A stretch of DNA of 64,000 nucleotides. Source: Anaerolinea thermophila. Lineage in GTDB: Bacteria; Chloroflexota; Anaerolineae; Anaerolineales; Anaerolineaceae. The notes beneath the pieces are model-generated. The model was not told where the DNA came from. It worked only from the letters and a program-made list of their open reading frames with translations, and searched no databases. Below are positions 7,744 through 64,000 of this stretch, one piece after another. The DNA is taken from contig NZ_DYHZ01000006.1 of NCBI RefSeq assembly GCF_020723905.1, positions 186,001-250,000 on the forward strand, given 5' to 3'. Positions within the stretch are counted from its first letter, which is position 1, and each line of letters begins with the position of its first letter. Both the position numbers and the translations under genes were made by a program.

Positions 7744-7777
7744 ATCCATTCCTGAATTTTTAGGGTAAGATAAAAGC

Positions 7778-21853: not shown

Positions 21854-21865
21854 ATGTGCTCCTCG

Positions 21866-48534: not shown

Positions 48535-48553
48535 ACTCAAACAGGAATGCCCC

Positions 48554-49378
48554 TTGGATGCCTTTTTTGCTCTCATCGTTGCTATCCCCATCGGACTGTT
48601 AGGCGGGTTGATTGGACTCGGCGGAGCAGAGTTCCGCCTTCCCGTTCTGGTGGGGGTATTCAAACGTTCCGCAAGGCAGGCTGTGCCGATTAATCTGGCT
48701 ATCAGCCTGATGACTCTTGTCTCCTCGCTCTTCATCCGCTTAAAAGTTCTGCCCGAATTTCCTTACGCCTCTCTCTGGCTTCCAATTGGCACTCTCATTC
48801 TGGGCGGGGTTGTTTTTGCCTTTTTAGGCGCCGGGTGGATCAGCCAAATCCCCCTGCACCGGCTGGAAGCACTCATACGATACTTTTTGATCCTGATTGG
48901 GGTTTTGCTTCTGATAGAAGGCGTTTTTTCTTTTCCTGTCGGGCATCTTCTTCAAGCCTCGCCATGGGTACAGGGAATTGTCGGCATCCTCTGCGGCGCG
49001 ATCATCGGAGTGGTCAGCAGTACACTGGGGGTTGCCGGGGGAGAATTAATCATTCCTACCCTGATTTTTATCTTTGGAATCGATGTTAAACTTGCGGGCA
49101 CTGCCAGTTTAATGATCAGTTTACCAACCGTCGTTACTGGCATTATTCGTTACACCCGCAAAGGTTTGTACCGGGAACGAAAAGAATGGTACACCTTGAT
49201 TGGTCCAATGGGACTTGGTTCGATTGCCGGGGCTATTTTAGGGGGAATTCTGGTTGGAACAATCTCCGGACAGTGGCTGAAAGTGATTCTGGGACTGGTA
49301 CTGATCGCATCTGCTGTGCGGATGTTTATACACCATCACCAATCCCAGAATTCACAGAAAGTTGACTTCAAACTGTAG
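48554..49378 (+). CDS. TauE/SafE-family anion permease
   Basis: Membrane protein of 274 residues with about eight helices in two repeats. The signature GLIGLGGAEFRLPVLVGVF near residue 15 and STLGVAGGELIIPTLIFIFG in the second half mark the TauE/SafE (sulfite/sulfonate export) family. Start is assigned to the TTG at 48554, which has AGGAA seven bases upstream and gives a proper first helix; longer frames run back into the permease gene without a site. It is the third gene behind padR. Convergent to the yeiH gene, only 4 bp away. Confidence 0.85.
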   Translation: MDAFFALIVAIPIGLLGGLIGLGGAEFRLPVLVGVFKRSARQAVPINLAISLMTLVSSLFIRLKVLPEFPYASLWLPIGTLILGGVVFAFLGAGWISQIPLHRLEALIRYFLILIGVLLLIEGVFSFPVGHLLQASPWVQGIVGILCGAIIGVVSSTLGVAGGELIIPTLIFIFGIDVKLAGTASLMISLPTVVTGIIRYTRKGLYRERKEWYTLIGPMGLGSIAGAILGGILVGTISGQWLKVILGLVLIASAVRMFIHHHQSQNSQKVDFKL

Positions 49379-49382
49379 TGCG

Positions 49383-50435
49383 TTAGAACATCCCTCCAAA
49401 AATCACCCACGCCACGCCCAGCGCCAGAAGGGTATTGAAGATTGTGATAATGATAAATGCAATGATAGGACGTATTCCCATGGCGTTGAGTTCTTTTAGC
49501 GAAAAGTCCATCCCCATTCCAACAAAGGCAAAGGTAAAGAACCAGTTTTTCAACGCATCAATTGCCGTGCCTTTGCCGCCATCAATCCAGCCTAAAGAAT
49601 ACAGCACCGAAGCCAGAACAAATCCCAAGACGAACTTGGGAAAACGATCCCAGATCAGGCGCGGGCTGGGTTGAATACCCTCACCTGCCTGTTTACGGGC
49701 AAAATATACGGCAAGGAGGAATGCTACCAGACCAATCAGGGTATTCTGGGTGGACTTAACGATAGAGGCAATTTTCTGGGCTTCTTCTCCAAAAATCGTA
49801 CCGGCGCCGACTACCGCCGCAGTGGTATCAATGTTGCCGCCAAACCATGCTCCCGCCACGGCCTGGGGAAGGTGCAGAGCCTGGGCAATTAATGGAGAAA
49901 TCACCATCATGGGCAAAGCCACCAGAATTACCAGGGTAGCCACATAAGTCACCTGTTCTTTTTTGGCTTGCACAGAGCCTGCCGCGGCAATGGCAGCAGA
50001 GACTCCACAAATTGAAACGGCAGAGGACAGCACTGCGCGTAGTTTCTCATCCAGCCCCAATTTTCCCGTAATCCACCAGGAAAACATGAAGACAGACGTT
50101 ATCATGATCAGAGTTTGAACAATTGCTCCTGCAGCGGCGTGGAGGATAATTTTCAGGTCAATCCCTGCGCCCAGGAGGATCAAACCCACCTTCAAAAACA
50201 ATTCTGTACGAATGCCTGGTTTGATTTCTTCGTATTTGCCAAACTTCCTGAGTATAAATCCACCCAGCAACCCAACCAGCGCTGCCCACATAGGATATTC
50301 CAGCGCTTTCCCGGGGATTTGAAAGGGAAGGGTCATAGGATAAATCCAGCGGGTAAGGCGCCAGGCCACCCATCCCAGCAGTAGTGTCACCAGCAAGCCT
50401 GATAAAATGGAGAGAGATTCTGACTTTCTTTCCAC
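49383..50435 (-). CDS. YeiH/UPF0324-family putative sulfate-type exporter
   Basis: Inner-membrane protein of 350 residues with about ten helices, UPF0324 family. Hallmarks include LFLKVGLILLGAGIDLKIIL, AVLSSAVSICGVSAAIAAAG, GAWFGGNIDTTAAVVGAGTI and FVGMGMDFSLKELNAMGIRP. The family is annotated as sulfate exporter-like from genetic context; transport has not been established for this type. Start is the GTG at 50435, eight bases after AAGGAG, which itself overlaps the stop of the 41-aa membrane peptide gene, so they are coupled. It lies opposite a TauE-type gene, suggesting sulfur-anion traffic. Confidence 0.9.
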   Translation of the reverse strand: MERKSESLSILSGLLVTLLLGWVAWRLTRWIYPMTLPFQIPGKALEYPMWAALVGLLGGFILRKFGKYEEIKPGIRTELFLKVGLILLGAGIDLKIILHAAAGAIVQTLIMITSVFMFSWWITGKLGLDEKLRAVLSSAVSICGVSAAIAAAGSVQAKKEQVTYVATLVILVALPMMVISPLIAQALHLPQAVAGAWFGGNIDTTAAVVGAGTIFGEEAQKIASIVKSTQNTLIGLVAFLLAVYFARKQAGEGIQPSPRLIWDRFPKFVLGFVLASVLYSLGWIDGGKGTAIDALKNWFFTFAFVGMGMDFSLKELNAMGIRPIIAFIIITIFNTLLALGVAWVIFGGMF

Positions 50436-50446
50436 TTCTTAACTCC

Positions 50447-50572
50447 TTAGAATACAATGGGCAAACCGTGTTTGCCAATCCACCCTAAGACTGAAAGAAG
50501 AATGATCCCAAAGGCAAGAACTACTGCCAGCCAATCCTCGTTCTTGAGGAAGGAAAATTTCCGAGAGACCAT
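50447..50572 (-). CDS. 41-aa single-pass membrane peptide upstream of yeiH
   Basis: Small gene: MVSRKFSFLKNEDWLAVVLA, then FGIILLSVLGWIGKHGLPIVF. It has a basic start, an EDW motif, one membrane helix at about residues 14-33 and a short end. The AGGAGCAGG site before the ATG is good. Its TAA lies within the AAGGAG site of the yeiH gene. The NEDWLAV segment resembles the N-terminus of longer YeiH-type proteins, where an EDWWAV motif opens an extra helix, so this seems to be that helix encoded apart. Its role as a subunit is inferred. Confidence 0.75.
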   Translation of the reverse strand: MVSRKFSFLKNEDWLAVVLAFGIILLSVLGWIGKHGLPIVF

Positions 50573-50601
50573 ATCCTGCTCCTCTTTTTGATGTGTCGAG
50601 A

Positions 50602-50630
50602 ATTATAGTCTTTGTATTTGCGCCAGTCAG
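50602..50630 (-). promoter_or_regulatory. Promoter of the small peptide-yeiH unit
   Basis: On the minus strand CTGACT (50630-50625), a 17-bp spacer and a perfect TATAAT (50607-50602) lie 30 bases before the small gene. Confidence 0.65.
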
Positions 50631-50687
50631 AGCAAACAGTACCAGTGTAAGGGAATTGCAAAGATACGGTAATTTGTCGAATAAAAA

Positions 50688-50716
50688 TTGACAGAACACA
50701 AGACTCACATTATCTA
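50688..50716 (+). promoter_or_regulatory. Possible upstream promoter of the SAO-like unit
   Basis: A perfect TTGACA (50688-50693), 17 bp and TATCTA (50711-50716) read toward the thioredoxin gene about 240 bp away. It would be in tandem with the nearer promoter at 50818. Confidence 0.45.
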
Positions 50717-50817
50717 TGCTTTTGAATGCTAAATCCCTGCAGAGACTGGAAATTCACATATACGTAATAGGGGGATTTTTCTCCCTGAAAGACCGGATGA
50801 AGGTCATATCTAAATGC

Positions 50818-50869
50818 TTGACGTTAATTTTTTAACCGATATAATAATATTCGTGTTCTCGAATATTAT
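50818..50869 (+). promoter_or_regulatory. Promoter with 10-bp operator palindrome for the SAO-like unit
   Basis: TTGACG (50818-50823), 16 bp and TATAAT (50840-50845) are followed by ATAATATTCG (50844-50853) and CGAATATTAT (50860-50869), a perfect 10-bp inverted repeat with a 6-base centre. It covers the start of transcription and has the size and AT-rich arms of ArsR/SmtB-type operators; no ArsR gene is in the window. Confidence 0.72.
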
Positions 50870-50955
50870 TTGTTGCCGGTTGAAATACAATCAGCCAAAC
50901 CAGGCAACGAAAAATGGTTGAGACTCATATTAGCCTAAAACAAGAAGGAGAGATT

Positions 50956-51198
50956 ATGTTAACCATCAAAATCCTCGGATCAGGTTGTTCGAATTGCAAA
51001 CGTCTGGAAGCATTAGCACGCAAAGTAGCAGGTGATTTAGGTGTCGAAGCAGAATTTGAAAAAGTGACCGATTTCAATGAGATCATGAAATGGCCCATCC
51101 TCTCAACTCCGGGTCTGGTGGTCAATGACAAACTGGTCTCTTCTGGAAGGATTCCCTCAGAGAAAGAAATCGCTGAGTGGTTAAAATCGGCTGCTTAA
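50956..51198 (+). CDS. Small thioredoxin-like protein (redox-active disulfide protein)
   Basis: Thioredoxin-fold protein of 80 residues, short like the MTH895 group. The active site is GSGCSNCKRLEAL with C11 and C14, and the cis-Pro loop is LSTPGLVVNDKLVSSGRIPS. Homologues usually stand next to COG0701 permeases, as here, and are thought to move thiol-bound metal or metalloid ligands. Start is the ATG at 50956, five bases after AAGGAG; a longer in-frame ATG at 50914 has no site. A hairpin with T-run separates it from the permease gene. Confidence 0.88.
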   Translation: MLTIKILGSGCSNCKRLEALARKVAGDLGVEAEFEKVTDFNEIMKWPILSTPGLVVNDKLVSSGRIPSEKEIAEWLKSAA

Positions 51199-51204
51199 AG
51201 CCCG

Positions 51205-51232
51205 TGGGCAGGATTTTCTGCCCATATTTTTT
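51205..51232 (+). terminator. Terminator or attenuator between thioredoxin and permease genes
   Basis: A 7-bp stem (51205-51211 with 51218-51224) with a 6-base loop is followed by a T-rich tract. Since the next gene follows on the same strand within 45 bp, partial read-through is likely. Confidence 0.65.
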
Positions 51233-51275
51233 GGGTAAAGACATTCAAAACAGCGAATAATTACAGAAGGATACC

Positions 51276-52607
51276 ATGGAATCGGTTTTAAGTTATCTCT
51301 CTCAACTTCTCTGGTCTGGGTGGACAAGTTTACTGGATTATCTTGCCGCTCATGTGCTTCTTTGCCTAGTACCTGCCTTCATCATCGCCGGGTTCATGAG
51401 TTCAATGATTCCCAAGGAAGCCATTACCCGATTTCTCGGTCCCAAGGCGTCCAAGTGGATCAGTTACCCGGTTTCTGCAATTGGAGGGTTTATCCTCGCT
51501 GTCTGTTCCTGCACCATTCTGCCATTATTTGCCGGTATCTGGAGACGGGGAGCAGGGCTGGGACCTGCGATTACCTTTCTATTTGTGGGTCCTGCCATCA
51601 ACATTCTTGCGCTTTCCTACACCGGGGCGGCTATTGGTTTCGATATCGCTGCATCGCGATTGATTCTTTCGATTGCCTTTGGCATCATCATCGGCTTAAT
51701 CATGGCATGGGTCTTCCGCAAAGAAGAAAATACTCGAGCGGCTGAAATGGCAGAAAACAGCGTGTTTGACCAGCGCGCAAAAATCAAACCAGCCATCTGG
51801 ATCATGTTCGGGCTACTTATTGCCATTCTGATTGTTGGCACTCTGCAGGTCAAAGGATTGACTCAGGTCTATGCCAGAATTCACATCCCCTTTGAATGGT
51901 CTGGAAGCATTGGGGGATGGCTCTCCTCTCTCAATTTGACCGTTCAGGGCGGTCTATTGATTTTGATGCTGATTGTCATTGGATTAACCTCATGGAAAGG
52001 CTTCGAGAATATCTTTGAAGGTTTCTCTCGCTGGACATATGCCGCTCTGGCATTGATCGGGCTGACCATTTTGATTGCTGCGCCCAAAGAAGAGTTGGGA
52101 TCACTGGTGATTGGTATCAACGGGCGCTTTATTGGTGAAATGATCCTCCTGCTCGGCGTGGTCCTTGTTGCCAGCCGCTCATTCACAAGAGAGGAATTAA
52201 GTGGCTGGATCTGGGAAACGTGGAAGTTCGTCAAACAAATTTTCCCTCTGTTGATCGTCGGGGTATTTGTTGCAGGAATGGCAAAAGTGATCATCCCGGA
52301 AACATGGGTGAGAACCATTGCCGGTCAAAACACCATTCTGGCAAATGTCGTGGGCGTGTTGTTCGGTGTCTTCATGTACTTCCCAACCCTGGTGGAAGTT
52401 CCGGTGGCAAAGATGTTCCTTGACCTTGGCATGGCACGCGGTCCTCTTCTGGCTTACCTGCTTGCCGATCCAGAATTATCTTTACAATCTATTCTGGTGT
52501 TGAATGGAGTCATGGGCAAGAAGAAAACTGCAGTATACGTATCGCTGGTTGCCGTGTTGAGCACACTTGCTGGATATTTATTTGGAATGTTCATCTCCCG
52601 AATATAG
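51276..52607 (+). CDS. COG0701/UPF0718 permease, SaoE-like efflux transporter
   Basis: Membrane protein of 443 residues with about ten hydrophobic helices in two halves. The first half has VPAFIIAGFMSSMIPKEAIT and the family motif GFILAVCSCTILPLFAGIWR with a Cys pair in the membrane (CSC), followed by GAGLGPAITFLFVGPAINIL. The second half mirrors it with LIVGVFVAGMAKVIIPETWV and FMYFPTLVEVPVAKMFLDLG, lacking the Cys. Related permeases export organoarsenicals (ArsP) or other organometals. Start ATG at 51276 follows AGAAGG. The partner set downstream suggests the SAO-type system. Confidence 0.85.
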   Translation: MESVLSYLSQLLWSGWTSLLDYLAAHVLLCLVPAFIIAGFMSSMIPKEAITRFLGPKASKWISYPVSAIGGFILAVCSCTILPLFAGIWRRGAGLGPAITFLFVGPAINILALSYTGAAIGFDIAASRLILSIAFGIIIGLIMAWVFRKEENTRAAEMAENSVFDQRAKIKPAIWIMFGLLIAILIVGTLQVKGLTQVYARIHIPFEWSGSIGGWLSSLNLTVQGGLLILMLIVIGLTSWKGFENIFEGFSRWTYAALALIGLTILIAAPKEELGSLVIGINGRFIGEMILLLGVVLVASRSFTREELSGWIWETWKFVKQIFPLLIVGVFVAGMAKVIIPETWVRTIAGQNTILANVVGVLFGVFMYFPTLVEVPVAKMFLDLGMARGPLLAYLLADPELSLQSILVLNGVMGKKKTAVYVSLVAVLSTLAGYLFGMFISRI

Positions 52608-52661
52608 GAGGCAAACACTTCTTGAGAGTGTGTTAAGGCTTTCTTTCTATCTGAATGAATC

Positions 52662-52696
52662 TTCCCTTTGGTATCGCAACAGGATACCGAAGGGAA
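52662..52696 (+). promoter_or_regulatory. Stable leader hairpin before the DUF5714 gene
   Basis: A 14-bp stem (52662-52675 with 52683-52696, one T-G wobble) closes a 7-base loop and ends 26 bases before the DUF5714 ATG. It is followed by a short T-rich stretch but no clear terminator tail, so it may be a regulatory or processing element. Confidence 0.6.
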
Positions 52697-52721
52697 CCGC
52701 TTTTACTGAAGGAGTGTATCC

Positions 52722-53402
52722 ATGACTTACTTTTGCGTCATCTGCGGCGAAGAGTTATCGCAGGTAGATATTACCGCGATTTGTACATTTTGCCAGCAGG
52801 AAAAGCCGGCACTCTATTTATGCCCCAAGGGCCATTTTACTTGCGATGACTGTCAGTTGGCCGATTGGCCCGAGGTGGTTAAGCGTGTATGTGAAGGCTC
52901 CCGGGAGAAAGATCCGGCAAAAATTGCAAATTTAATCATGAAACACCCCATGTCCATCATGCACAGCCCTCAGCATCATATCCTTATTCCGGCTGTGGTA
53001 TTATCGGCATTGAGGAATACGGGGATTCGCCCCTTGAATCCAGGTCGACTCGAGTCAGCCATAGAGCGAACCAAAGGTATTCCTCTGGGAGTGTGTGGAA
53101 CACGCGGGGAATGCGGTGCCGCCATCGGAGCAGGAACGGTTGTCTCCATATTGACCGGGGCAACGTTTACAAAAGATCGGGAACGCTCGTTAGCCTTACG
53201 AGCCTCCGCAGAGGCTTTAATGGCTATTGCGGAGGCGGGAGGACCCCGCTGCTGCAAGCAAAGCGTCTATCTTACGCTTGAGGTGGTTTCTCATTTTCTC
53301 CAGAGAGAATTGAATATTCCTCTCTCCACAGCACCCCAGTGTGATTTTTACCGGCGGAATCCAGAATGTAAAAAGGAACGGTGCAAGTATTATGTCTCCT
53401 GA
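52722..53402 (+). CDS. DUF5714 protein, SaoD-like
   Basis: Cytosolic protein of 226 residues. The N-terminus holds two zinc-ribbon-like CxxC pairs (CVICGEEL with C5/C8, CTFCQQ with C21/C24) and a further CPKGHFTCDDCQL knuckle. The DUF5714 core shows SIMHSPQHHILIPAVVLSAL, GIPLGVCGTRGECGAAIGAG and AGGPRCCKQSVYLTLEVV with a vicinal Cys pair. The C-terminus has more Cys (CKKERCKYY). Such conserved Cys and His suggest metal or metalloid handling. ATG at 52722 follows GAAGGAG. It overlaps the lipoate-ligase-like gene. The precise reaction is unknown. Confidence 0.85.
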   Translation: MTYFCVICGEELSQVDITAICTFCQQEKPALYLCPKGHFTCDDCQLADWPEVVKRVCEGSREKDPAKIANLIMKHPMSIMHSPQHHILIPAVVLSALRNTGIRPLNPGRLESAIERTKGIPLGVCGTRGECGAAIGAGTVVSILTGATFTKDRERSLALRASAEALMAIAEAGGPRCCKQSVYLTLEVVSHFLQRELNIPLSTAPQCDFYRRNPECKKERCKYYVS

Positions 53403-54465
53403 GTGGCGTTTACTTCAGGATGATATTCATGAGGCGCGACATCATTTTGCCGTCGAAGAGGCTATTGCGCGGCTGTTAGATGAAGGAAAAAGTCCCTCAA
53501 CCTTACGGTTAAGGCGAGTGTATCCAGCCGTATTCGTTGGTGTGCATCAGAATACCTGGGCAGAAGTGGACGTGGAGTACTGCCGTGCCCATGGCATCCA
53601 GATTGTACGCCGGATGAATGGCGGCGGTGCTGTTTACCATGAGATGGGAAGTTTTTGTTATTCGGCATTTTTCCCAAGAGAATTCTTTCCTCAAAGTGAC
53701 ACCGAGTTATACCGTCTGTTTGCTAATCCAATCATTCGCACCTGCGCAGATTACGGGATCATTGCTCATTTTGGCGGAAGAAATGACGTACTGGTTGGCG
53801 AGCGCAAAATTTACGGCTCCGCACAGTTCTCTTGCTATCGAGCCTTTGTTCAAAGCGGGACATTTCTGGTACAAATGAATTTTGAGGCAATGGAACGAGC
53901 CTTAAAACCCCCAAAAGTTAAATTTGCAGGCAAAACCGCTCAATCCATCCGCGAACGGGTGACTTCTCTGACGCAAGAAACCAGACGTGCCATAGATGTT
54001 TCAGAGGTAATGGATCGCTTTGTAACACATTTTTCCGAGATATTCGGGATAAAACTTGTACCTGGAACCTTATCTCCAGAGGAAGAAAAACTTGCTCTCG
54101 ATCTATTTAAGGTAAAGTACAATACAGATGCATGGAACTTTGGTTCTCCTCTTCAATATCAAATTACCGTTGCCGAACGGGCAGAAGAAGGGGTAGTTGT
54201 GGTCTCTGCTGATATAGAAGGAGAGAAGATACAAAAAATCGCTATTACAGGGGACTTTTTACTGGGTTTTCGCAAACCGCTGGAAGAACTGGAACTCTCT
54301 TTGACAGACAAGTCCGTTTCAGAAGCCCAAACTCTGATTCAACATTCCGCTTTACCCTCTGGAATGCGAGCGACCCTGATCAATCTTATCCACAAAATAG
54401 ACCGGGAAATGAAAGAAGTTTCTTCTACTCGAAAACAGGAGGATACACATGGACAAAATTGTTAA
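53392..54465 (+). CDS. Lipoate-protein ligase A family protein, SaoL-like
   Basis: Protein of 357 residues with the LplA/BirA fold. The lipoyl-AMP binding loop is RRMNGGGAVYHEMGSFCYS (usually RRxSGGGAVYHD), followed by GRNDVLVGERKIYGSAQFSC and the Lys region KFAGKTAQSIRERVTSL. A C-terminal accessory domain (about 250-357) like that of LplA is present. No lipoylated target protein gene is adjacent, which points to a specialised role of this homologue in the neighbouring redox/permease set. Start ATG at 53392 overlaps the DUF5714 gene by 11 bp; the last residues overlap the next gene. Confidence 0.85.
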   Translation: MSPEWRLLQDDIHEARHHFAVEEAIARLLDEGKSPSTLRLRRVYPAVFVGVHQNTWAEVDVEYCRAHGIQIVRRMNGGGAVYHEMGSFCYSAFFPREFFPQSDTELYRLFANPIIRTCADYGIIAHFGGRNDVLVGERKIYGSAQFSCYRAFVQSGTFLVQMNFEAMERALKPPKVKFAGKTAQSIRERVTSLTQETRRAIDVSEVMDRFVTHFSEIFGIKLVPGTLSPEEEKLALDLFKVKYNTDAWNFGSPLQYQITVAERAEEGVVVVSADIEGEKIQKIAITGDFLLGFRKPLEELELSLTDKSVSEAQTLIQHSALPSGMRATLINLIHKIDREMKEVSSTRKQEDTHGQNC

Positions 54466-54802
54466 AGTAGAAGTGCTCATTGCTACTCCCCCTACACGCA
54501 AATGCGAACAAACGCTTGAGGTCCTCAGAGAAATTGTTCGCCGTTACCCGGAAGAAACCCGTCTGGTCGTTTTTCGCCGGGGGATTGATTTTGTCCCCGA
54601 AGAATTACAGATGAGAGAATATGTTTCCGAAGAGGATTGCCAGCCCAAAGAAGCCAGTTTGCAAATGCGCACGCTCATCACAAAGGGAAGAGCCGTGCCA
54701 ACTGTCGTAATTGACGGCGAACTGTTCTCCACATTTGAAGTTCCCAGTTTGGAGGACGTTGAAAAAAAGGTGCAGGAAATTCTTGGAAAATCCGGGGAAT
54801 GA
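54449..54802 (+). CDS. Thioredoxin-like protein, SaoT-like
   Basis: Protein of 117 residues with a thioredoxin-like plan: an opening strand VKVEVLIATPPTRKC with a single Cys19, a helix (EQTLEVLREIVRRYP), RLVVFRRGIDFVPEEL, and a cis-Pro loop AVPTVVIDGELFSTFEVPSL. The only other Cys is C64 (EEDCQPKEA). In the SAO-type neighbourhood the equivalent protein is described as a thioredoxin-like (seleno)protein; here Cys19 is a normal TGC codon. It overlaps the lipoate-ligase-like gene, so the five genes from 50956 act as one unit. GGAGG precedes the ATG. Confidence 0.75.
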   Translation: MDKIVKVEVLIATPPTRKCEQTLEVLREIVRRYPEETRLVVFRRGIDFVPEELQMREYVSEEDCQPKEASLQMRTLITKGRAVPTVVIDGELFSTFEVPSLEDVEKKVQEILGKSGE

Positions 54803-54933
54803 GAGAATGCTGCAAATCCTCTCCCGGAAAACAATCGATCATCCCAGGGAACGGTTTGATTGACGGGTATCCCTTTTCCTTGCTAAAATCCCATAACCTG
54901 CTATCATCGCAGAATTTCGTTAAGGAATATTGA

Positions 54934-56181
54934 ATGAAGATCTTGCCCAGATTGAAGCGTAATCCCAGACTCGGGATAGTCCTTCTTGCTTTTATTGCCT
55001 TTATCGCCTTAGGTTTGCCTGATGGCTTGCTCGGAGTCGGCTGGCCCTCCATCCGCAACAGTTTTTCTATTCCTCTGGATTCTATTGGAATGCTCCTGAC
55101 AGCATCCGTTGCCGGATACATGGCATCCAGTTTCATGAGCGGTGTCATGCTTTCTCGCCTGGGCGTTGGAAAAGTCCTTGCCCTCAGTTGCTTCCTTACC
55201 GGTCTGGCTTTAATCGGTTATACGCTGGTTCCCGAATGGTGGATGATGGTCTTGCTTGGCGTGATTGCCGGTCTGGGTGCCGGGGCAATTGATGCAGGGC
55301 TGAACACCTATGTTGCCGCCCATTTTGGCGAGGGCTTAATGCAGTGGTTGCACGCCAGTTGGGGCGTAGGCATCACCACAGGGCCGATTATCATGACTCT
55401 GGGCTTAAGCACCCTGGAGACCTGGCGATTTGGTTACTGGGTCGTGGGCGGTTTTCAAATGGCTCTGGCAGTCGGGTTTGTGTTGACCCTGCCCATGTGG
55501 AACCGGAGTCACGGCGAGCCATCCACCCACGAACAAGTTCAGCCAGAAAAGAGGCTTACTGATTACCAGACTCCCATCTCTGAAACACTGCGCAAGTCCT
55601 CTGTGTGGTTGAGCGTGTTATTGTTCTTCCTGTATGTGGGGGCAGAAAACTCACTGGGAACCTGGACCTATACCCTGTTGACCGAATCTCGCGGGGTGGA
55701 TCAAACCCTGGCAGGCTTCTTTGCCGGCAGTTACTGGTTCACCTTTACCATTGGACGCATTCTTGCGGGAGTTGTTGCTCATCGAGTGGGAATCCATAAA
55801 CTGGTGCTGGGAGGGGTAAGCGGAGCTTTGCTGGGAGCCGCTTTACTCATCTGGAATCCTGCAGAAATTGCCAATGTAATCGCCGTGGCAATGATTGGGA
55901 TTTCCATTGCGCCAATTTTTCCTGCCATGATGTCCGGCACCAGAATTCGGGTAGGTGATCAACACGCTGCCAATACCATTGGTCTGCAAATGGCAGCCAC
56001 GGGCTTTGGCATTGCTGTCATTCCCTCCACCATGGGCATACTGGCACGGCGCATCTCCCTAGAAGTGATCCCCGTTTATCTGCTTGTGGTGTATCTGGCT
56101 TTACTGGGAGTATATCTTCTGGCAATGAAACCCGAAAAAGCCCCTGCGTCAGAGAATCCCGTCACCCCCATGTCCGGATGA
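54934..56181 (+). CDS. MFS transporter
   Basis: Major facilitator protein of 415 residues with twelve predicted membrane helices and a loop near residue 195-215 between halves. The N-terminal half has FIALGLPDGLLGVGWPSIRN, as in fucose/sugar-type and Bacillus YfmO/FsrA-like MFS members, and GLGAGAIDAGLNTYVAAHFG, a segment typical of the FHS (fucose-galactose-H symporter)-like group. The substrate is unknown. ATG follows TTAAGGAATATTGA. Its own terminator marks the end of the core chromosome before the island. Confidence 0.88.
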   Translation: MKILPRLKRNPRLGIVLLAFIAFIALGLPDGLLGVGWPSIRNSFSIPLDSIGMLLTASVAGYMASSFMSGVMLSRLGVGKVLALSCFLTGLALIGYTLVPEWWMMVLLGVIAGLGAGAIDAGLNTYVAAHFGEGLMQWLHASWGVGITTGPIIMTLGLSTLETWRFGYWVVGGFQMALAVGFVLTLPMWNRSHGEPSTHEQVQPEKRLTDYQTPISETLRKSSVWLSVLLFFLYVGAENSLGTWTYTLLTESRGVDQTLAGFFAGSYWFTFTIGRILAGVVAHRVGIHKLVLGGVSGALLGAALLIWNPAEIANVIAVAMIGISIAPIFPAMMSGTRIRVGDQHAANTIGLQMAATGFGIAVIPSTMGILARRISLEVIPVYLLVVYLALLGVYLLAMKPEKAPASENPVTPMSG

Positions 56182-56188
56182 ATAAATA

Positions 56189-56219
56189 AAAAGGCAGTCT
56201 TTTTTTCAGACTGCCTTTT
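56189..56219 (+). terminator. Terminator after the MFS gene
   Basis: A perfect 12-bp stem (56189-56200 with 56208-56219), with A-run and T-run, closes a 7-base loop. Confidence 0.88.
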
Positions 56220-56227
56220 GTTTCCAG

Positions 56228-56269
56228 TCGCGGGGAGTGGATTCGAACCACTGACCTCCGGGTTATGAG
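56228..56269 (-). tRNA. 3' half of a tRNA(CAU) gene: attachment-site scar
   Basis: On the minus strand the sequence runs from an anticodon loop CTCATAA through the stem 3' arm CCCGG, AGGTC, the T arm (AGTGG TTCGAAT CCACT) to CCCCGCG and discriminator A. The 5' half is missing: the bases before the loop (CTTTAATC on the minus strand) cannot pair with CCCGG. This is the leftover of integration into a tRNA-Met-like gene, not a functional tRNA. It lies 2 bp after the integrase stop. Confidence 0.85.
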
Positions 56270-56271
56270 GA

Positions 56272-57174
56272 TTAAAGCCCCCAGACTTTTACAGGTGAGG
56301 CGCGCTGATGTACACCCTCTATATCTGTTTGAGCAATTGCCAGGTATCTACGAACCATATCCAAGGTTTCATGCCCTAAAATTGCTTGCAGTGTAAAAAC
56401 GTCTCCACCGTTTCTCAAGAAATTTATTGCGAAAGTATGTCGGAATCGGTGAGGATGAGCATCGTTTACACCAGCCCGGTCACCAATTCGCCGAATAATC
56501 AATCTGAGTGCGTCTCGGCTAAGAACATTCCCTTGCTCTGTTTTGAATACATATTTCTCCCTGTCTTTTTGCTCTCCTACATAGTCGCACAGCGCAGAGC
56601 GGGTTGTTTCTGAAATCGGCACCAAGCGATCCTTTGAGCCTTTTCCGTGTATATAAATTCCGCTTGGTTTGATATCTTTTACCTTTATTCCACATAATTC
56701 AGATGCTCTGATCCCGGTATCTAACAGCAATAAAATGATTGCCCTATCTCGCACACCGGTCTTCAAGCGATTACGACAAGCACGTTTTTCCGGACGAGTG
56801 TATTCCTTTGAGGTATCGGTAGATGCAAGCATATTCATAATTTGATCACGGGTGAAAGGGAGAATGGGGCGCTTTTCAGGTTTGGGGGGCTTGATCTGGC
56901 GAATAATGTGAACTGTGCAATATCCCATTTCAACCGCCCATGTCCAGAGAGAAGAAAGAGCTGTGTAAATGTTTTTGACTCTTTTTTTTGACAAATCGAG
57001 TGATGCCAAATAATGGGCAATTGTCTTTCCTTCAAAATGATCTATGTCAAAATCACCAATTTCCCTATTAAATCGCCGCAGGACGGTTTCATAATCCAGC
57101 AAAGTCCAACGGCTCAGACGCTGAGCTCGCTTAAACTCCAAAAACTCGTCAATGCAAGAAGACAGCAAAGGCAT
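56272..57174 (-). CDS. Tyrosine recombinase/integrase
   Basis: XerD-like site-specific recombinase of 300 residues. The core-binding SAM-like domain covers about 1-95. The catalytic domain has the first Arg in LDTGIRASELCGI, Lys in GKGSKDRLVPI, His and second Arg in HPHRFRHTFAINFL, His in LGHETLDMV and the Tyr in RRYLAIAQ. The start is the ATG at 57174 with GGAGG eight bases upstream; an upstream in-frame ATG at 57243 has no good site. Its stop lies two bases from the tRNA-derived attachment site, so it is the island's own integrase. Confidence 0.93.
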   Translation of the reverse strand: MPLLSSCIDEFLEFKRAQRLSRWTLLDYETVLRRFNREIGDFDIDHFEGKTIAHYLASLDLSKKRVKNIYTALSSLWTWAVEMGYCTVHIIRQIKPPKPEKRPILPFTRDQIMNMLASTDTSKEYTRPEKRACRNRLKTGVRDRAIILLLLDTGIRASELCGIKVKDIKPSGIYIHGKGSKDRLVPISETTRSALCDYVGEQKDREKYVFKTEQGNVLSRDALRLIIRRIGDRAGVNDAHPHRFRHTFAINFLRNGGDVFTLQAILGHETLDMVRRYLAIAQTDIEGVHQRASPVKVWGL

Positions 57175-57310
57175 ATTTCCAACCTCCGTGACTGGTATGA
57201 TGTTTGTTATTGTTTTGGTTTGGTAGAGATTGGATTTTGCCATTTTCCACCCTTCAAAATGACATCAGATTCGCCAGTAATTTGCTATACTTATTTCCAG
57301 TAAAACAAAT

Positions 57311-57437
57311 CCAGCCCCGCCGCTGGCTACGGCGAGGCTGGAGTGGCAACGCGGTTGCGGCGCGTTGCGGCAGAATCCAGCATAACAAACTTTTGCCGCC
57401 CGCGCAAATAACCCGTTTGCCGCGGGCGGAGTTTGTT
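57311..57437. repeat. Three-hairpin structured element
   Basis: The gap between the integrase and DUF2188 genes holds three consecutive hairpins: 57311-57322 with 57330-57341 (one mismatch), 57346-57353 with 57361-57368 (8 bp perfect), and a two-part stem of 8+9 bp (57384-57391 with 57430-57437; 57396-57404 with 57421-57429). It is GC-rich between AT-rich flanks. It could be a palindromic repeat unit or a structured RNA. No promoter is evident. Confidence 0.65.
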
Positions 57438-57460
57438 TGATCTTGTTAAGGGAAAATGCT

Positions 57461-57697
57461 ATGGCAAACAACAGAAATGTTCATGTTGTCCCAAAAGGTA
57501 ATCAATGGGCTGTTAAAAAAGAGGGAAACAAACGCGCTACGTCAATTCATCAGCGAAAAGAAAAGGCAGAAAAACGAGGTCGTGAGGAAGCAAAAAAAGA
57601 GCATTCCGAACTGATCATTCATCGGAAAGACGGCACCATACAAGGTAAAGATAGTTATGGTTATGATCCAAACCCACCCAAGGATAGCAAACCTTAG
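57461..57697 (+). CDS. DUF2188 small basic protein
   Basis: Protein of 78 residues, strongly charged. The core NRNVHVVPKGNQWAVKKEGN followed by an Ala/Glu/Lys-rich helix and LIIHRKDGTIQGKDSYGYDP is the DUF2188 pattern, a small fold of unknown function often found near mobile or defence genes. The final GYDPNPPKD tail is usual for the family. Start ATG at 57461 with TTAAGGGA upstream. hsdR begins 3 bases after its stop, so it belongs to the restriction operon. Confidence 0.88.
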   Translation: MANNRNVHVVPKGNQWAVKKEGNKRATSIHQRKEKAEKRGREEAKKEHSELIIHRKDGTIQGKDSYGYDPNPPKDSKP

Positions 57698-57699
57698 GA

Positions 57700-60393
57700 A
57701 TGCCTCTCAACGAATCGGATACCCGCGCTCAACTGATTGATCCTTTGCTCCATCGCGCTGGCTGGACACGCAGCCAGGTGACGCGCGAGCATTATTACCG
57801 ACCGGACTGGCAGTACGCGCCAGGACGAGTGGTATTGCGCGGCGGTCGGGCTGAACGCGAAAAACCGCGAGTCATGGATTATCTCCTGCGCTATACGGAT
57901 GCTTTCCCGATTGCGGTGGTGGAAGCCAAAGCCGAAGATATGCCAGCCAACGCCGGGTTAGAACAAGCCAAGCGTTACGCACGAGAGAACAATCTCATGT
58001 TTGCGTATGCCACCAATGGACATGAGATTATCGAATGGGATGGATTCAGCGATACCACTCGCATCCTTACAGAATTTCCTTCCCCCGATGAATTGTGGAA
58101 TCGCTGGGCGTTGAACACTGGCATTCACTCACCGCAGGAGGTGGAAAAGCGAATTGGCGAATTGCGCCCGCGTTACGATGCCGCAGTTGCCGCAGCCCGA
58201 CAACGCACCCCCCTGTTGCACCCCTATGCGCCACCGAGTCTGACCCACGGTAGCGAACCACGCTACTTCCAGGAGGCTGCCATTCGAGAAACACTGGTAC
58301 GCATCATGCGAGGGCAGAGACGCATCTTGCTGACCATGGCTACCGGTACGGGAAAAACCTTCACCGCCATGCAAATTGTGTGGAAGCTGATCAAGTCAGG
58401 CTGGCTGCATCAGCAAAGAGGGCGCTCCGGCAAGGTGCTATTCCTTGCCGACCGTGAGGTGTTACGCAATCAGGCTTATAATGCCTTCAGCCCTTTTGCC
58501 GGTGATCATGGAGATCCACGCTTCATGCTGGATGGCAAACGCCGTTTGAGTTTGCAACACGATTTGTACTTTGGTATTTACCAGACGCTCTGGGCGCAGG
58601 ATCCCCAGGGAAAGCGTCTGTTTGAAAAATTCCCGCGCGACTTTTTCGATATGGTTATCATTGATGAAGCCCACCGTTCGGGTTTTGGAACCTGGAAAGA
58701 GATTCTGGATCACTTTGAAAGTGCCATCCACCTGGGAATGACTGCCACCCCCAAGCAAGATGAAAATGTGGACACCTACGCCTACTTCTGTGCCGAGGAA
58801 CCAGCCATTCCCATTGATGAACAGGACCCCTCCAAAGGTCTTATTCATAAGCCAGCCTATACCTACAGTTTGGGTCAGGGAATCGAAGACGGTTTTCTGG
58901 CTACCTACAAAGTACACCGCGTGCTCAGCAGTGTGGATAAAAGCGGTTTACGAATTTCACAGGTTGTGGAGCAGGGCGCCGAACTGATTGTTCCAGAAGA
59001 TGCCGAATTGCGTGAGGAGTATCACACCCCCAACTTCGAACGCGAGATCCGTTTGCCCGATCGCACCCAGACGCTGGTCAAACATCTGGCAAATTTGCTG
59101 CGTCAGTTTGGACCCCTGCACAAGACGATGGTCTTTTGTGTGGATATGGAACATGCCCAGGAAGTTGCCCGCCTGCTGAATAATGAATTTGCCGATTTGG
59201 GGCTGGGTGAAAATTACGCCGTGCCAATTGTTAGTGAAGAGGGCGAACATGCTCAGCGCTGGCTCAACCAGTTTCAGGATAGCGACCGCAGAACGCCGGT
59301 GGTGGCAACCACTGCCGAACTCCTCTCCACCGGAGTAGATGTGCCAGCCTGCCGCAACATTGTCTTCCTGAAAACCATCTCGTCCCCCATTCTCTTCAAA
59401 CAAATCATCGGACGCGGCAGCCGCCTGGACCCGGCAACCGGTAAACTGTGGTTCCGTATCATTGATTACACCAACGCCACCCGCCTGCTCGACCCGCGCT
59501 GGGACTGCCCGCCCCGACCGATTGAAACCGCTCGCCCTATCAGCACTCAAACGGGCATCTTGCAGGGCACGGTACGTCTGGCAGATAGTGGGGAAATCCT
59601 TCAGGGTGCAAGTGTGGCTGTCATGGCAGCGCCCAATGACCAGCGCGGACCCATCCTGACCGATGAGCAGGGTAAATACCGCTTCGAAGGACTGCCAGTG
59701 GGGGAAGTAACGGTTGTCGCATATGGACCGCGCCTGAAACGCCAGCAAAAGACCATCACCACGCAGGATGGTGTTCCCGTTACCGTTGATTTTGACCTCG
59801 CTCCGCTGGCAGAAGGAGAGCACCGCCAGATTGTCGTCAGAAATTTAGAGGTGACGATTGCCGAGGAAGCCACCTTCTTTGTCGCAGGGCTGAGCGAGCC
59901 GCTGACGTTGGAACAATATGTGGATTATTCTCGCCAGAAGACGCTGGAATTACTGCCCGGTTGGGAACTGCTGGTACAGGCATGGCAGGAGGAAAACCAG
60001 AGACAAGAAATCAAGCGGAAGCTGGAACATAGCAATGTTTATCCGGAAGTGCTGGCAGAGGTGCTGAACCAACAGCAAGCGGATACTTTTGATGTCCTGG
60101 CATATGTGGCGTTTGGACGCCAGCCCATTCCGACCCGTGAGGAGCGGTTACGCACCTTTGTACAGCGCCACGCCGACTGGTTGAACGCTTTTTCGCCTTT
60201 GCAGCGCCAGATCATCGCAGCCCTGCTGGAGCAGTACCGGAATAGCGGGGTAGATGAGATTGCCAACCCACGTGTCTTTCGTCTGCCCGCTTTCAGAACC
60301 TGGGGCGGGTTGAATGGTATCAGCCAGCAGTTTGGCGGTGATCAATCCCTGCGCCAGATTGTGTTGGAACTTCAACGTCGTTTGTACCCATAA
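57700..60393 (+). CDS. hsdR: Type I restriction enzyme HsdR with an inserted carboxypeptidase-regulatory-like domain
   Basis: Motor and nuclease subunit of 897 residues. The N-terminal nuclease domain shows D60 and E75-A-K77 (RVMDYLL, VVEAKAED), the PD-(D/E)xK core. The helicase has Walker A MATGTGKT (about 213-220), DEAH box at about 322-325, ATPKQDE and VATTAELLSTGVDVPACRNI with IIGRGSRLDP in the second lobe. About residues 619-703 (GTVRLADSGEILQGASVAVM, then TDEQGKYRFEGLPVGEVTVV) is a beta-sandwich domain of the CarboxypepD_reg type, not a normal part of HsdR. The C-terminal 190 residues are of the EcoEI R type. It is followed by hsdM after 24 bp. Confidence 0.93.
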   Translation: MPLNESDTRAQLIDPLLHRAGWTRSQVTREHYYRPDWQYAPGRVVLRGGRAEREKPRVMDYLLRYTDAFPIAVVEAKAEDMPANAGLEQAKRYARENNLMFAYATNGHEIIEWDGFSDTTRILTEFPSPDELWNRWALNTGIHSPQEVEKRIGELRPRYDAAVAAARQRTPLLHPYAPPSLTHGSEPRYFQEAAIRETLVRIMRGQRRILLTMATGTGKTFTAMQIVWKLIKSGWLHQQRGRSGKVLFLADREVLRNQAYNAFSPFAGDHGDPRFMLDGKRRLSLQHDLYFGIYQTLWAQDPQGKRLFEKFPRDFFDMVIIDEAHRSGFGTWKEILDHFESAIHLGMTATPKQDENVDTYAYFCAEEPAIPIDEQDPSKGLIHKPAYTYSLGQGIEDGFLATYKVHRVLSSVDKSGLRISQVVEQGAELIVPEDAELREEYHTPNFEREIRLPDRTQTLVKHLANLLRQFGPLHKTMVFCVDMEHAQEVARLLNNEFADLGLGENYAVPIVSEEGEHAQRWLNQFQDSDRRTPVVATTAELLSTGVDVPACRNIVFLKTISSPILFKQIIGRGSRLDPATGKLWFRIIDYTNATRLLDPRWDCPPRPIETARPISTQTGILQGTVRLADSGEILQGASVAVMAAPNDQRGPILTDEQGKYRFEGLPVGEVTVVAYGPRLKRQQKTITTQDGVPVTVDFDLAPLAEGEHRQIVVRNLEVTIAEEATFFVAGLSEPLTLEQYVDYSRQKTLELLPGWELLVQAWQEENQRQEIKRKLEHSNVYPEVLAEVLNQQQADTFDVLAYVAFGRQPIPTREERLRTFVQRHADWLNAFSPLQRQIIAALLEQYRNSGVDEIANPRVFRLPAFRTWGGLNGISQQFGGDQSLRQIVLELQRRLYP

Positions 60394-60417: not shown

Positions 60418-62022
60418 ATGGCAAACAATCACCGAATCAACGACAACCTGAGCACCGAGATGTGGCGCGCCTGCGACATCCTGCGCCGCGACAACAACGT
60501 GGGCGGGGTGATGCAGTACACCGAACATCTTGCCTGGTTGTTGTTTCTCAAGTTTTTCGATCAGGAAGAAAAAAGACGGGCGCGCGAAGCCGCCTTCCGC
60601 GGCGAATCCTATACGCCTATCCTTCCGGCTGATCTGGCGTGGGATGCCTGGGCAAACCCGGAAGCCCTGGGGAAATGGGACTCCAGCAAGGGTGAGCTGG
60701 TCACCTTTGTGCGCGCCCGGCTGCTGCCGGGGTTGGCGAGCTTGAATGGTTCACCACTGGCAGAGTCCATCGCGAAACTTTTTTCTGATGAGAGCATGGG
60801 TAATCAAGCGGTGGTGCGCAACGTGCCTGTCTGCGCTTCGGATTACAACCTCAAGGATGTGCTGACCATCATCAACGAGATTGACTTCGAGCGTGACGAT
60901 GACTTCTTCACCATCACCCGCTTTTACGAAGACCTGCTGGCGCGGATGGGGCAGGAGAATCAAATCGCTGGCGAATTTCACACCCCCCGTCCAATCATCC
61001 GCTTCATGGTAGAGGTCATTGACCCGCACATAGGCGAAACAGTGTACGACCCCGCTTGTGGTTCGGCGGGTTTTCTGGCGCAAGCCTACCTGCATATGGA
61101 AAAGCAAGCCCGCACCCTGGAAGAAGCCGAAATCCTGCAGCAGCGCACCTTTTACGGGCAGGAGAAGAAAGCCCTGGCAGCCCTGCTGGGGACGATGAAC
61201 CTCGTCCTGCATGGCATTACCACCCCCAATATTACCCGCCGCAACACGCTGGAAGAAGATGTTAAAACAAGCGTTACCGAGCGCTTTGATATTGTTCTGA
61301 CCAATCCACCCTTTGGCGGCAAGGAAGGACGTCACATTCAGGAAAATTTCCCCGTCCGCAGCAATGCCACCGAACTGCTCTTTCTCCAGCACATTCTCAA
61401 AAAGTTGAAGCAAGCCCCCAATGCCCGCGCGGCGGTTGTCGTTCCCGAAGGGACGCTCTTCCGCGGCGGAGCGTTCGCCGAGGTCAAGAAAACGCTGTTA
61501 GAGGATTTTCACCTGTCTGCGGTGGTCAGCCTGCCGCCGGGGGCTTTTGCGCCTTATTCGGACGTAAAAACCGCGTTGCTGTTCTTTGAGCGCGCGCAAG
61601 GCGTGCTGGAACGCAACCCTCTGGCGCACAACGAGACCTGGTACTACGAACTGCTCCTGCCCGCTGGATTGAAGAAGTTCAGCAAGGGAAGCCCGATTCT
61701 GGACGAGCATTTTGACGAAGCCCGCCGCCTGTGGGCGCAGTGGCGCGCTTACCTGCACGGCGAATGCCAGCGCCCCTTCCCTACCGCCGCCGAAGCCCGC
61801 CAGCAAAGCCGCAACGGCGAAACCCCGCGGGCGTGGGTGGAAACGCTCGACGACCTGCGCGAGCGCAACTACGACCTGAGCGCCCGCAACCCCTACCAGA
61901 ACGAACGCGCCGCCCTGCCGCGCCCTGCCGAACTGACCGCCCGCCTGCTGGAACGCCAGCGCGAGGTGCAGGCTGCGTTGGAACGCCTGCACGCCCTGGT
62001 AAGCAATGGAGAGGAGGAATAA
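60418..62022 (+). CDS. hsdM: Type I DNA adenine methyltransferase HsdM
   Basis: N6-adenine methyltransferase subunit of 534 residues. An N-terminal helical HsdM_N domain (INDNLSTEMWRACDILRRDN) precedes the methylase. The S-adenosylmethionine motif is DPACGSAGF (about 211-219) and the catalytic motif is NPPF (about 296-299, in LTNPPFGGKEGRHI). A C-terminal helical part contacts HsdS. Start ATG at 60418 follows ACAAGGA. Its TAA overlaps the ATG of hsdS (TAATG). GC content is visibly higher than in neighbouring AT-rich segments of hsdS. Confidence 0.96.
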   Translation: MANNHRINDNLSTEMWRACDILRRDNNVGGVMQYTEHLAWLLFLKFFDQEEKRRAREAAFRGESYTPILPADLAWDAWANPEALGKWDSSKGELVTFVRARLLPGLASLNGSPLAESIAKLFSDESMGNQAVVRNVPVCASDYNLKDVLTIINEIDFERDDDFFTITRFYEDLLARMGQENQIAGEFHTPRPIIRFMVEVIDPHIGETVYDPACGSAGFLAQAYLHMEKQARTLEEAEILQQRTFYGQEKKALAALLGTMNLVLHGITTPNITRRNTLEEDVKTSVTERFDIVLTNPPFGGKEGRHIQENFPVRSNATELLFLQHILKKLKQAPNARAAVVVPEGTLFRGGAFAEVKKTLLEDFHLSAVVSLPPGAFAPYSDVKTALLFFERAQGVLERNPLAHNETWYYELLLPAGLKKFSKGSPILDEHFDEARRLWAQWRAYLHGECQRPFPTAAEARQQSRNGETPRAWVETLDDLRERNYDLSARNPYQNERAALPRPAELTARLLERQREVQAALERLHALVSNGEEE

Positions 62023-63203
62023 TGGAACGCTGGGAATTGCCGAAAGGGTGGGCGTGGAAGAAACTTAAGACCCTGATAACGGTAATTTATGGCAAAGGCT
62101 TATCAGAGAAACTGCGACTAGGCGGAAATGTGCCTGTCTATGGCGCAAACGGTGTTGTGGGCTTCCATAACGCATCAATTACAAAAGGCCAAACGATCGT
62201 AATCGGTCGCAAAGGTTCTGCTGGAGCAGTTAACTGGAGCGAGATAGCTTGTTGGCCAATTGATACCACATTTTTTATTGATGAATTTCCAGAAATCCTT
62301 TACCCTAAATTTCTTTACCAATTTTTGCGAAGTCAACAAATCGATCGCTTACAACAATCTGCCGCAATTCCGGGCTTAAACCGCGATGTTTTGTATAGTG
62401 TAGAAGTCCCCATCCCATACCCCGACGACCCCGCCCGTTCGCTGGCAGAACAGCGCCGCATCGTGGCGCGGCTGGAGGCGCTGCTGGGCGAAGTGCGCAC
62501 CCTGCGCGAAGAAGTCCAATCCATGCGCCGCGACCTGGCGCAGGTGATGGAATCCGCCCTGGCGGAAGTATTCCCCGATCCACAGGGGGAGGTGAAGGAG
62601 GGATGGGGGTGGAGGAAACTCAAAGAAATTGCTCGTGAAGATTCGCAACAAATTATCCCCACTGATTATCCAGAGCAAGAGTTTAATTACTGGGGTTTAG
62701 ACACTATAGCTAAAAATCAGATAGAAGAACCTTCACCTAATTTTGTTCTTGGCTCTACTATTCAGAGCACATGTGTAAAGTTCACTAAAGAGCATGTTTT
62801 ATACTGTAAATTAAGACCTTATTTGAACAAGGTCGTAGTTCCTTCTTTGGACGGAATTGGTTCTACAGAGTGGATACCATTAAAACCAAATCCAGAGATC
62901 ATAAAAAGGAGTTTTCTTGCCTTCTTTCTGCGCTCTCCTTATTTTCTTCAATATGCCACATCAAATGTCGCTGGGGCAAGAATGCCAAGAATGTCTAAAA
63001 AAGCATTGAAGGAAGCCTTCGTCCCCATCCCATACCCCGACGACCCCGCCCGTTCGCTGGCAGAACAGCGCCGCATCGCCGCCTACCTGGAACGCATCGC
63101 TGAAGAGACCCGCGCCATGGACGATTTGCTGGAGCAAGACCTACGCGACCTTGATGCGCTGGAGCAATCCATTCTCGCCGCGGCGTTTCGGGGAGAGGTT
63201 TAG
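62022..63203 (+). CDS. hsdS: Type I specificity subunit HsdS
   Basis: DNA-recognition subunit of 393 residues with two target-recognition domains: TRD1 at about 1-125 (WELPKGWAWKKLKTL, LYSVEVPIPYPDDPA boundary) and TRD2 at about 195-330 (GWGWRKLKEIA, FVPIPYPDDPA boundary). Each is followed by a conserved helix (SLAEQRRIVARLEALLGEVR and SLAEQRRIAAYLERIAEETR). The two recognition domains differ from each other, so the target should be bipartite and asymmetric. The TRD2 coding region is notably AT-rich. The start overlaps the hsdM stop. A perfect 58-bp direct repeat marks the ends of both TRDs. Confidence 0.95.
   Translation: MERWELPKGWAWKKLKTLITVIYGKGLSEKLRLGGNVPVYGANGVVGFHNASITKGQTIVIGRKGSAGAVNWSEIACWPIDTTFFIDEFPEILYPKFLYQFLRSQQIDRLQQSAAIPGLNRDVLYSVEVPIPYPDDPARSLAEQRRIVARLEALLGEVRTLREEVQSMRRDLAQVMESALAEVFPDPQGEVKEGWGWRKLKEIAREDSQQIIPTDYPEQEFNYWGLDTIAKNQIEEPSPNFVLGSTIQSTCVKFTKEHVLYCKLRPYLNKVVVPSLDGIGSTEWIPLKPNPEIIKRSFLAFFLRSPYFLQYATSNVAGARMPRMSKKALKEAFVPIPYPDDPARSLAEQRRIAAYLERIAEETRAMDDLLEQDLRDLDALEQSILAAAFRGEV
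62406..62463 (+). repeat. 58-bp direct repeat in hsdS, copy 1
   Basis: Identical over 58 bases to 63021-63078, 615 bp downstream and in the same frame. It encodes the VPIPYPDDPARSLAEQRRI segment at the end of the first recognition domain. Confidence 0.95.
63021..63078 (+). repeat. 58-bp direct repeat in hsdS, copy 2
   Basis: Second copy of the repeat at 62406-62463, at the end of the second recognition domain. Both copies keep the same codons, which suggests recent duplication or gene conversion. Confidence 0.95.
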
Positions 63204-63214
63204 GAGGAATCTTT

Positions 63215-64000
63215 ATGAAACTGAGGAAATTATCTATTAATAATTTTCGCGGAATCCACAATTTAGATTGGACAATTAACAGTGATATGGTGTGCTTGAT
63301 TGGTCCTGGCGATTCCACCAAAAGTACTATTTTGCTGGCTTTGGAATATCTCTTTTCACCAACCTATAATTTGACAATTAGTGATATCGATTTTTACGAA
63401 ATGAACGTGAGCGATGATAATCCCATTAAGATTGAAGCAATAGTTACTGGCTTTTCTCAACCTTCAGAATCAGATAACAGTTTAATTTCGGAAGATTCCT
63501 TTGGATTGGCGCTAGGATTTTGGGATCCTTTAAATCAATGTCTTTCAGATACACAAAAAGAGCATAATGGCACCCCATTTGAACCAGCCTTAAGGATCAG
63601 ACTGACCATTGGACGAGATTTAGAACCATCCTGGCAGGTTGTGCGACAGGATGGAGAGCCTCTATCCATTTCTGCTGTCGATCGCCGAAAATTAGGCGTA
63701 GCCAGTATTGGGCAATATTTTGATAGCGATCTATCTTGGGGACGTAACTCTGCGTTAACTCGTTTGACTCAAAAAGAGGATTTATCAAAAATACCAAAGA
63801 TACTTGCCGAGTCTGAACGCGAAATACTCACAGCTCTTAGGGTCGCTGACTTAAGCAGTCTTTCAGGTGCAATTGAAACGGCAAATTCTGCAGCAAAATC
63901 GATCGGGCTTAATCTTCAACAACTTCAGGCTGGCATACACCCCATGAAGGTAAACTTAAAACAAGGAGCCATATCGCTTTTTGACGGCAATTTACCTTTC
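63215..64000 (+). CDS. OLD-like AAA ATPase, cut by the window edge
   Basis: Partial gene, 262 residues visible, open to the end of the window. The N-terminus MKLRKLSINNFRGIHNLDW is that of RecF/OLD-type ABC ATPases. Walker A reads IGPGDSTKSTILLALE, where Thr replaces the usual Gly before Lys. DIDFYEMN and a segment with RIRLTIGRDLEPSWQVVRQD follow. The GGAGGAATCTTT site precedes the ATG, 11 bp after hsdS. A TOPRIM nuclease half is expected beyond the edge. OLD-family proteins occur alone or as the first gene of defence systems such as Gabija; which one cannot be told here. Confidence 0.8.
   Translation, partial: MKLRKLSINNFRGIHNLDWTINSDMVCLIGPGDSTKSTILLALEYLFSPTYNLTISDIDFYEMNVSDDNPIKIEAIVTGFSQPSESDNSLISEDSFGLALGFWDPLNQCLSDTQKEHNGTPFEPALRIRLTIGRDLEPSWQVVRQDGEPLSISAVDRRKLGVASIGQYFDSDLSWGRNSALTRLTQKEDLSKIPKILAESEREILTALRVADLSSLSGAIETANSAAKSIGLNLQQLQAGIHPMKVNLKQGAISLFDGNLPF

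Follow-up and report, generated by a model that had tools for sequence, protein, structure and literature searches.

The window, that is, the whole 64,000-nucleotide stretch of DNA analysed here (positions 186001-250000 of contig C2), probably contains the integrase-side end of an Anaerolineaceae integrative island inserted into an initiator-type tRNA-Met gene, with an intact tRNA-Met gene on a second contig, C3, as the other end. We observed both copies of the tRNA segment with their boundaries and orientation, as well as a fossil attachment site and a sister element in related genomes. The arrangement is a tRNA-gene island of the known textbook kind; the less ordinary part is an apparent exchange of integrase plus core between conserved ends.

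A displaced tRNA-Met 3' half next to an integrase gene

The proposed left end of the island has the following features:

56189..56219, no strand assigned: terminator-like hairpin with T-runs between the MFS gene (plus strand) and the scar (minus strand), read by eye
56228..56269, minus strand: displaced tRNA-Met(CAU) 3' half from C32 to A73, with G72; the proposed attachment scar, from sequence and pattern search
56272..57243, minus strand: tyrosine integrase of 323 aa, 3' end toward the scar (Pfam Phage_integrase, 6.8e-36, and relatives)
57279..57415, no strand assigned: noncoding block preceding the integrase gene; portions of it recur at 80-83% identity in sister elements at other tRNAs, and it is 91% identical in UBA9135

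The minus strand reads CTCATAACCCGGAGGTCAGTGGTTCGAATCCACTCCCCGCGA from 56269 to 56228, spanning the anticodon loop to the discriminator base, and the spacing to the integrase stop codon (56272-56274) is exactly 2 bp. ARAGORN called no tRNA at 56228-56269, its sole call in the window being a tRNA-Leu at 11374. Sequence and ARAGORN thus agree with the original observation of a 42-bp tRNA(CAU) piece that lacks its 5' half and lies 2 bp from an integrase stop. A 40-base scar pattern allowing up to three mismatches matched once in the window versus zero times in 100 shuffles; in the 3.29-Mb own genome (G000, 13 contigs) it matched twice and the reversed pattern not at all. The GC content, 0.496 to the left and 0.514 to the right, hardly differs across the boundary and does not mark it.

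The gene had been correctly recognised as a tyrosine integrase; the listed reading frame runs to 57243, past the earlier limit of 57174, and both ATG starts are possible. The junction of integrase and core was found in three of 147 family genomes (G000, G004 and G062), and neither the integrase protein nor the junction pattern had a match in viral contigs.

An intact tRNA-Met gene on a second contig

The one other copy of the scar in the own genome, with one mismatch, lies within an intact tRNA-Met(CAU) gene at C3:51621-51693. The restored tRNA had been predicted outside the window, and the search for the 42 bases in a full tRNA(CAU) gene found it there, on another contig, with its 3' side toward the contig end as the prediction requires. 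Both the scar and the C3 tRNA are presumably of the initiator type, judging from the GGG/CCC anticodon stem and the 1:72 mismatch. To the right of the scar, C2 continues for 11.4 kb and stops at 253643, and so covers this part of the roughly 200 kb within which a second copy had been required; C3 ends at 54516, 2.8 kb past the intact tRNA. Because both contigs stop short of a junction, the island ends are unjoined in the assembly; we infer that an unassembled middle portion connects C2 with C3. From a single scar, the far end of an island can be predicted even where the assembly is interrupted in between.

The surroundings of the two copies differ. On the 3' side of the C3 tRNA follow a terminator-like hairpin unlike that of the scar and a tail, then an HTH_17-domain gene, whose product we take to be excisionase-like, and then an SSB gene. 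Behind the scar come its own terminator-like hairpin and the MFS gene, and no element tail. Copies of one tail region are cut by, or lie just ahead of, the contig ends C3:54516, C5:648732 and C11:20212 in the own genome, and may account for the assembly breaks.

In the proposed mechanism, a circular element would carry the integrase gene, a core that matches the tRNA exactly from C32 on, and a tail that supplies a terminator of its own. On insertion, the 5' half and promoter of the chromosomal tRNA would be joined to the 3' half of the element, giving the intact C3 gene, while the original 3' half would end up at the far end together with the terminator that belongs to it, giving the scar. The integrase of the window would presumably perform this insertion, by strand exchange at the anticodon loop.

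Upstream of the fMet gene, G001, G002, G003 (in part) and G004 have the same cytochrome region that precedes the C3 tRNA. The left flank (48000-56227), with which we sought an empty site in these four same-genus genomes, gave seven matches, none of them beside the fMet gene. In G004 they are separated from fMet by 1.7 and 2.2 Mb (contig coordinates), and in G001-G003 they are on contigs other than that of the tRNA, so that the left flank is away from the tRNA in four of four genomes and on other contigs in three. This search revealed no empty site, a point against the proposed insertion. With the MFS gene as a synteny marker (61 genomes), the close relatives belong to other genera; of the two individually covered, G014 has it on a different contig from fMet and G017 has it 74 kb from a weaker fMet-like match.

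A fossil attachment site and a sister element in relatives

Evidence tying the two ends together came from three related genomes. In Anaerolinea thermolimosa IMO-1 (G004, locus L074), C1:2536747 has the 3' end of the integrase plus the core with 98.8% identity over 329 bp, and here the core is joined directly to a tail of the C3 type (92% over 128 and 97% over 182 columns). This layout is that of the attachment site (attP) of a putative circular element. It is a fossil, in which the integrase is cut down to residues 231-323 and tRNA-Lys 3' fragments lie on one side. As a separate observation, the region L074 5454-9074 is a composite in which a 305-aa integrase next to a tRNA-Lys 3' half adjoins the internal fossil fMet attachment site with its truncated integrase.

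Contig C1 of G007 carries a sister element of the same design within 64.7 kb of a single contig:

7568-7612: tRNA-Lys 3' half
7673-8554: integrase
21814-22626: homolog of the protein at the C2 end
48688-49929: T2SSE
65796-66572: ParA
70182-70471: match to the SSB gene of C3
71565-72086: HTH_17 gene
72062-72122: tail module
72157-72231: tRNA-Lys(CTT)

From this order it follows that C2-end and C3-end sequences co-occur in one element in the proper order. A further tail copy (7471-7531) adjoins the Lys 3' half from behind, and because of it the G007 element may be one unit of a tandem array. With regard to the transfer machinery and relaxase expected of an integrative conjugative element, a scan of ten of its proteins gave T2SSE, RcpC/CpaB and ParA and no relaxase among the ten. 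The 1124-aa mid-element protein had no match in the own genome in a search run without a positive control, and the T2SSE protein had 31-32% matches and no close copy in the own genome, and matches of 91% and 50% in G004. That neither protein has a close copy in the own assembly counts against the proposed island.

In UBA9135, apparently the same as genome G062, in which the same integrase/core junction was found, the integrase is 97% identical and the type I system is collinear with 77.7% DNA identity over 5649 columns. The same scar is present, followed by a different terminator-like hairpin. The original prediction that scar and integrase mark the left end of an island is thus backed by the C3 tRNA, the fossil attP and the G007 sister element.

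Phage-defence genes in the probable island

To the right of the integrase and the noncoding block, the following genes were annotated:

57437..57697, plus strand: DUF2188 protein (Pfam, 7.3e-22)
57700..60393, plus strand: HsdR, type I restriction subunit (domain and defence-system annotation)
60418..62022, plus strand: HsdM, type I methylase (domain and defence-system annotation)
61731..63203, plus strand: HsdS, type I specificity subunit (reading frame as listed; first Pfam domain from about 62040)
63215..64000, plus strand: GajA of Gabija, running on to C2:250987
C2:250929-252344, beyond the window, after GajA: GajB of Gabija

GajA and GajB are adjacent (PADLOC, 1.2e-142 and 8.1e-121), and Gabija is followed near the C2 end by a conserved protein without a Pfam match. 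The claim that everything to the right of 56228 is acquired is borne out by gene content only up to the end of C2. On the main reading, the phage-defence island sits in a tRNA-Met gene of which the assembly yielded no other intact copy. Residues 621-700 of HsdR form a carboxypeptidase-regulatory-like domain (Pfam, 2.2e-13) between the helicase and C-terminal domains, which, judged by eye, is also present in the HsdR of UBA9135.

The initiator tRNA gene as a hotspot with two integrase layouts

An intact-like initiator gene was found in 53 of 61 genomes at the threshold used here, and 20 of the 61 contain fMet 3' fragments, 28 in total, 19 of which start exactly at C32. Counted fragments have at least 38 bases and reach query base 77, shorter pieces being left out, and include that of the window, the G004 fossil attP and one at a contig edge in G043 that may be a cut intact gene. 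The initiator-type tRNA-Met gene is therefore an insertion hotspot.

Among 32 integrase loci (those of the window, UBA9135 and L074 plus the 29 best-scoring further loci, compared with 15 tRNA queries only), 12 carry fMet sequence, a gene or a 3' fragment, that is located at the integrase start or overlaps it. Another eight have a tRNA 3' half at most 52 bp from the integrase stop, from fMet (3), another tRNA-Met (2) or tRNA-Pro (3), and in a ninth, L111, a Pro 3' half lies inside the integrase reading frame as read. A tree of the 29 integrases longer than 230 aa split the six labelled scar-side rows from the 12 labelled tRNA-side rows by a 98/93 branch; the remaining 11 rows are unlabelled, and three of these stand next to the scar-side group. 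Two groups of integrases, with opposite layouts on either side of this branch, thus seem to have arrived at the same anticodon loop. The fragment does occur in relatives without this integrase, which had been named as a possible objection to the island; the objection fails in the examined cases because other integrases accompany the fragments there. L072 3039-18097 (G009 C107) holds an intact fMet gene and, roughly 2.7 and 15 kb downstream of it, two fMet pieces that cover query 19-57 and both carry an inserted stretch in the T arm.

Comparison with known systems places the island near the Islander class A. In the Islander paper, this anticodon-centred class comprises 2083 of 3919 islands, and displaced 3' fragments 3760 of 3919 (PMC4383910). 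The present case likewise combines a tRNA, an integrase and a displaced 3' fragment oriented like the tRNA, but its ends are on two contigs, to which the length test given there is inapplicable. The matching of the anticodon loop to the integrase overlap is covered in a review (PMC8371274). Islands of other Anaerolineales that have their integrase downstream of an fMet gene or fragment share the target gene, the C32 boundary and a homologous integrase 35-39% identical to that of the window, whereas the start, not the end, of their integrase adjoins the tRNA in the 12 labelled rows across the 98/93 branch. The Dehalococcoides ssrA islands, as outlined in PMC3146451, resemble it in phylum, in a single-copy RNA gene as target, in tandem islands and in a conserved integration module, but use a serine recombinase and the tmRNA gene. 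In the titles and abstract beginnings covered, this element family is not described.

Position 72 and the point of exchange

The anticodon-loop crossover claimed originally agrees with the C32 boundary, at which the shared segment begins here as in most counted fragments, but is at odds with a difference between the two copies. The scar and the core of the G004 fossil attP have G72, and the C3 tRNA has T72. An exchange in the loop would leave the host base in the scar, so that T72 would be expected there: T72 with T1 opposite was found in 94 of 94 matched intact genes from 92 of 147 family genomes (with position 72 unconstrained in the search pattern, 55 genomes gave no match). Either the same change arose in each of two unused copies, or the exchange, or a conversion, took place beyond position 72.

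In a variant of the main reading, which we consider unlikely, the exchange took place 3' of position 72, the integrase brought along all 42 bases of the copy, and the C3 tRNA is the host's own through 72. This would explain why scar and A. thermolimosa attP core share a G72 that all matched intact genes lack. However, past 72 both ends have only ACT in common, versus the usual overlap of about 7 bp mentioned in the same review (PMC8371274), the fragment starts cluster at C32, and the UBA9135 scar carries T72. Two independent T-to-G changes would suffice, the same change twice being roughly estimated at 1 in 129.

One island or two insertions

It is rather improbable that scar and intact tRNA stem from two separate insertions, the C2 end being part of a tandemly arrayed element and the C3 tail part of a different member of the same family. 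Such arrays have precedents: a G049 contig has two fMet fragments after one intact gene, an integrase follows the fMet 3' half in G016 (L095), G024 (L100) and G035 (L092), and the G007 sister element is itself array-like. In the own genome the tail module also follows a tRNA-Arg and a tRNA-Pro, and the family is therefore multi-copy; moreover, the C3 tail and the fossil attP, at 92% near the core, fall short of identity. An array needs another copy of the core, however, and the own assembly has one fMet fragment, although a second could sit in unassembled sequence. That the scar is an old fossil unrelated to a present island, with the integrase as a dead neighbour, is very improbable, even though the A. 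thermolimosa fossil attP is just such a piece stranded elsewhere with a truncated integrase, since the integrase here is full length, the cargo is collinear with UBA9135, and a terminator-like hairpin and the MFS gene, rather than an element tail, lie behind the scar.

Conserved ends and possibly modular targeting

Elements of five other target types also contain the noncoding block at 57279-57415, at 80-83% identity, and their integrases are 24-45% identical to that of the window. The block of the Lys(CTT) element stands about 1.2 kb away from the integrase, and in the Arg-target element the integrase reading frame has 175 aa only. These sequences suggest that integrase and core might be swapped together as a cassette. 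As the cassette would lie between two modules in the circle, retargeting would be a local swap.

At the opposite end, an intact tRNA precedes seven of the 12 tail copies in the examined stretches at a distance of at most about 35 bp. In the own genome these tRNAs are tRNA-Met, tRNA-Arg(GCG) and tRNA-Pro(CGG); G007 has tRNA-Pro and tRNA-Lys(CTT), G028 tRNA-Pro and G004 tRNA-Cys. Three further copies are behind a tRNA 3' half (L074, L160 and L166), and two do not adjoin a called tRNA (L163, and L167 at 475 bp after tRNA-Arg). The tail contains a 130-base unit (L004 11786-11915, C3:51786-51915 of the own genome) predicted to fold into a closing stem with three arms, cloverleaf-like, with a z-score of -6.2. 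It is also found at L157 6663-6812, L074 8367-8516, L160 12477-12624 and L168 9889-10035. Among these five sequences, seven of 49 pairs have two-sided changes and some pairs are broken. The unit had no Rfam match, the search at E up to 1 on L003, L004 and L074 yielding two tRNAs and one hit below the cut-off, and a covariance model run against 59 loci recovered its five source sequences with weak antisense matches at three of these. The predicted fold could be an RNA or a single-strand DNA site, both being possible.

The element family thus points to a seemingly modular choice of target. We tentatively propose, as a possibility rather than an expectation, that the family retargets tRNA genes by exchanging an integrase-plus-core cassette between conserved ends, the noncoding block on one side and the tail with its folded unit of about 130 bases in five copies on the other. 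The A. thermolimosa island, with its internal fMet site and Lys-side integrase, would then be an intermediate caught in the process, and the folded unit an unrecognised functional part with a role in recombination, transfer or as RNA.

Separately, a tRNA-Met(CAU) gene lies 1.3-2 kb inside the tail end in three sister elements, while the C3 copy is without it at the matching place:

L157 8461-8534 (C5:648461-648534 of G000): internal tRNA-Met(CAU) gene
L163 8291-8363: internal tRNA-Met(CAU) gene
L164 10095-10167: internal tRNA-Met(CAU) gene
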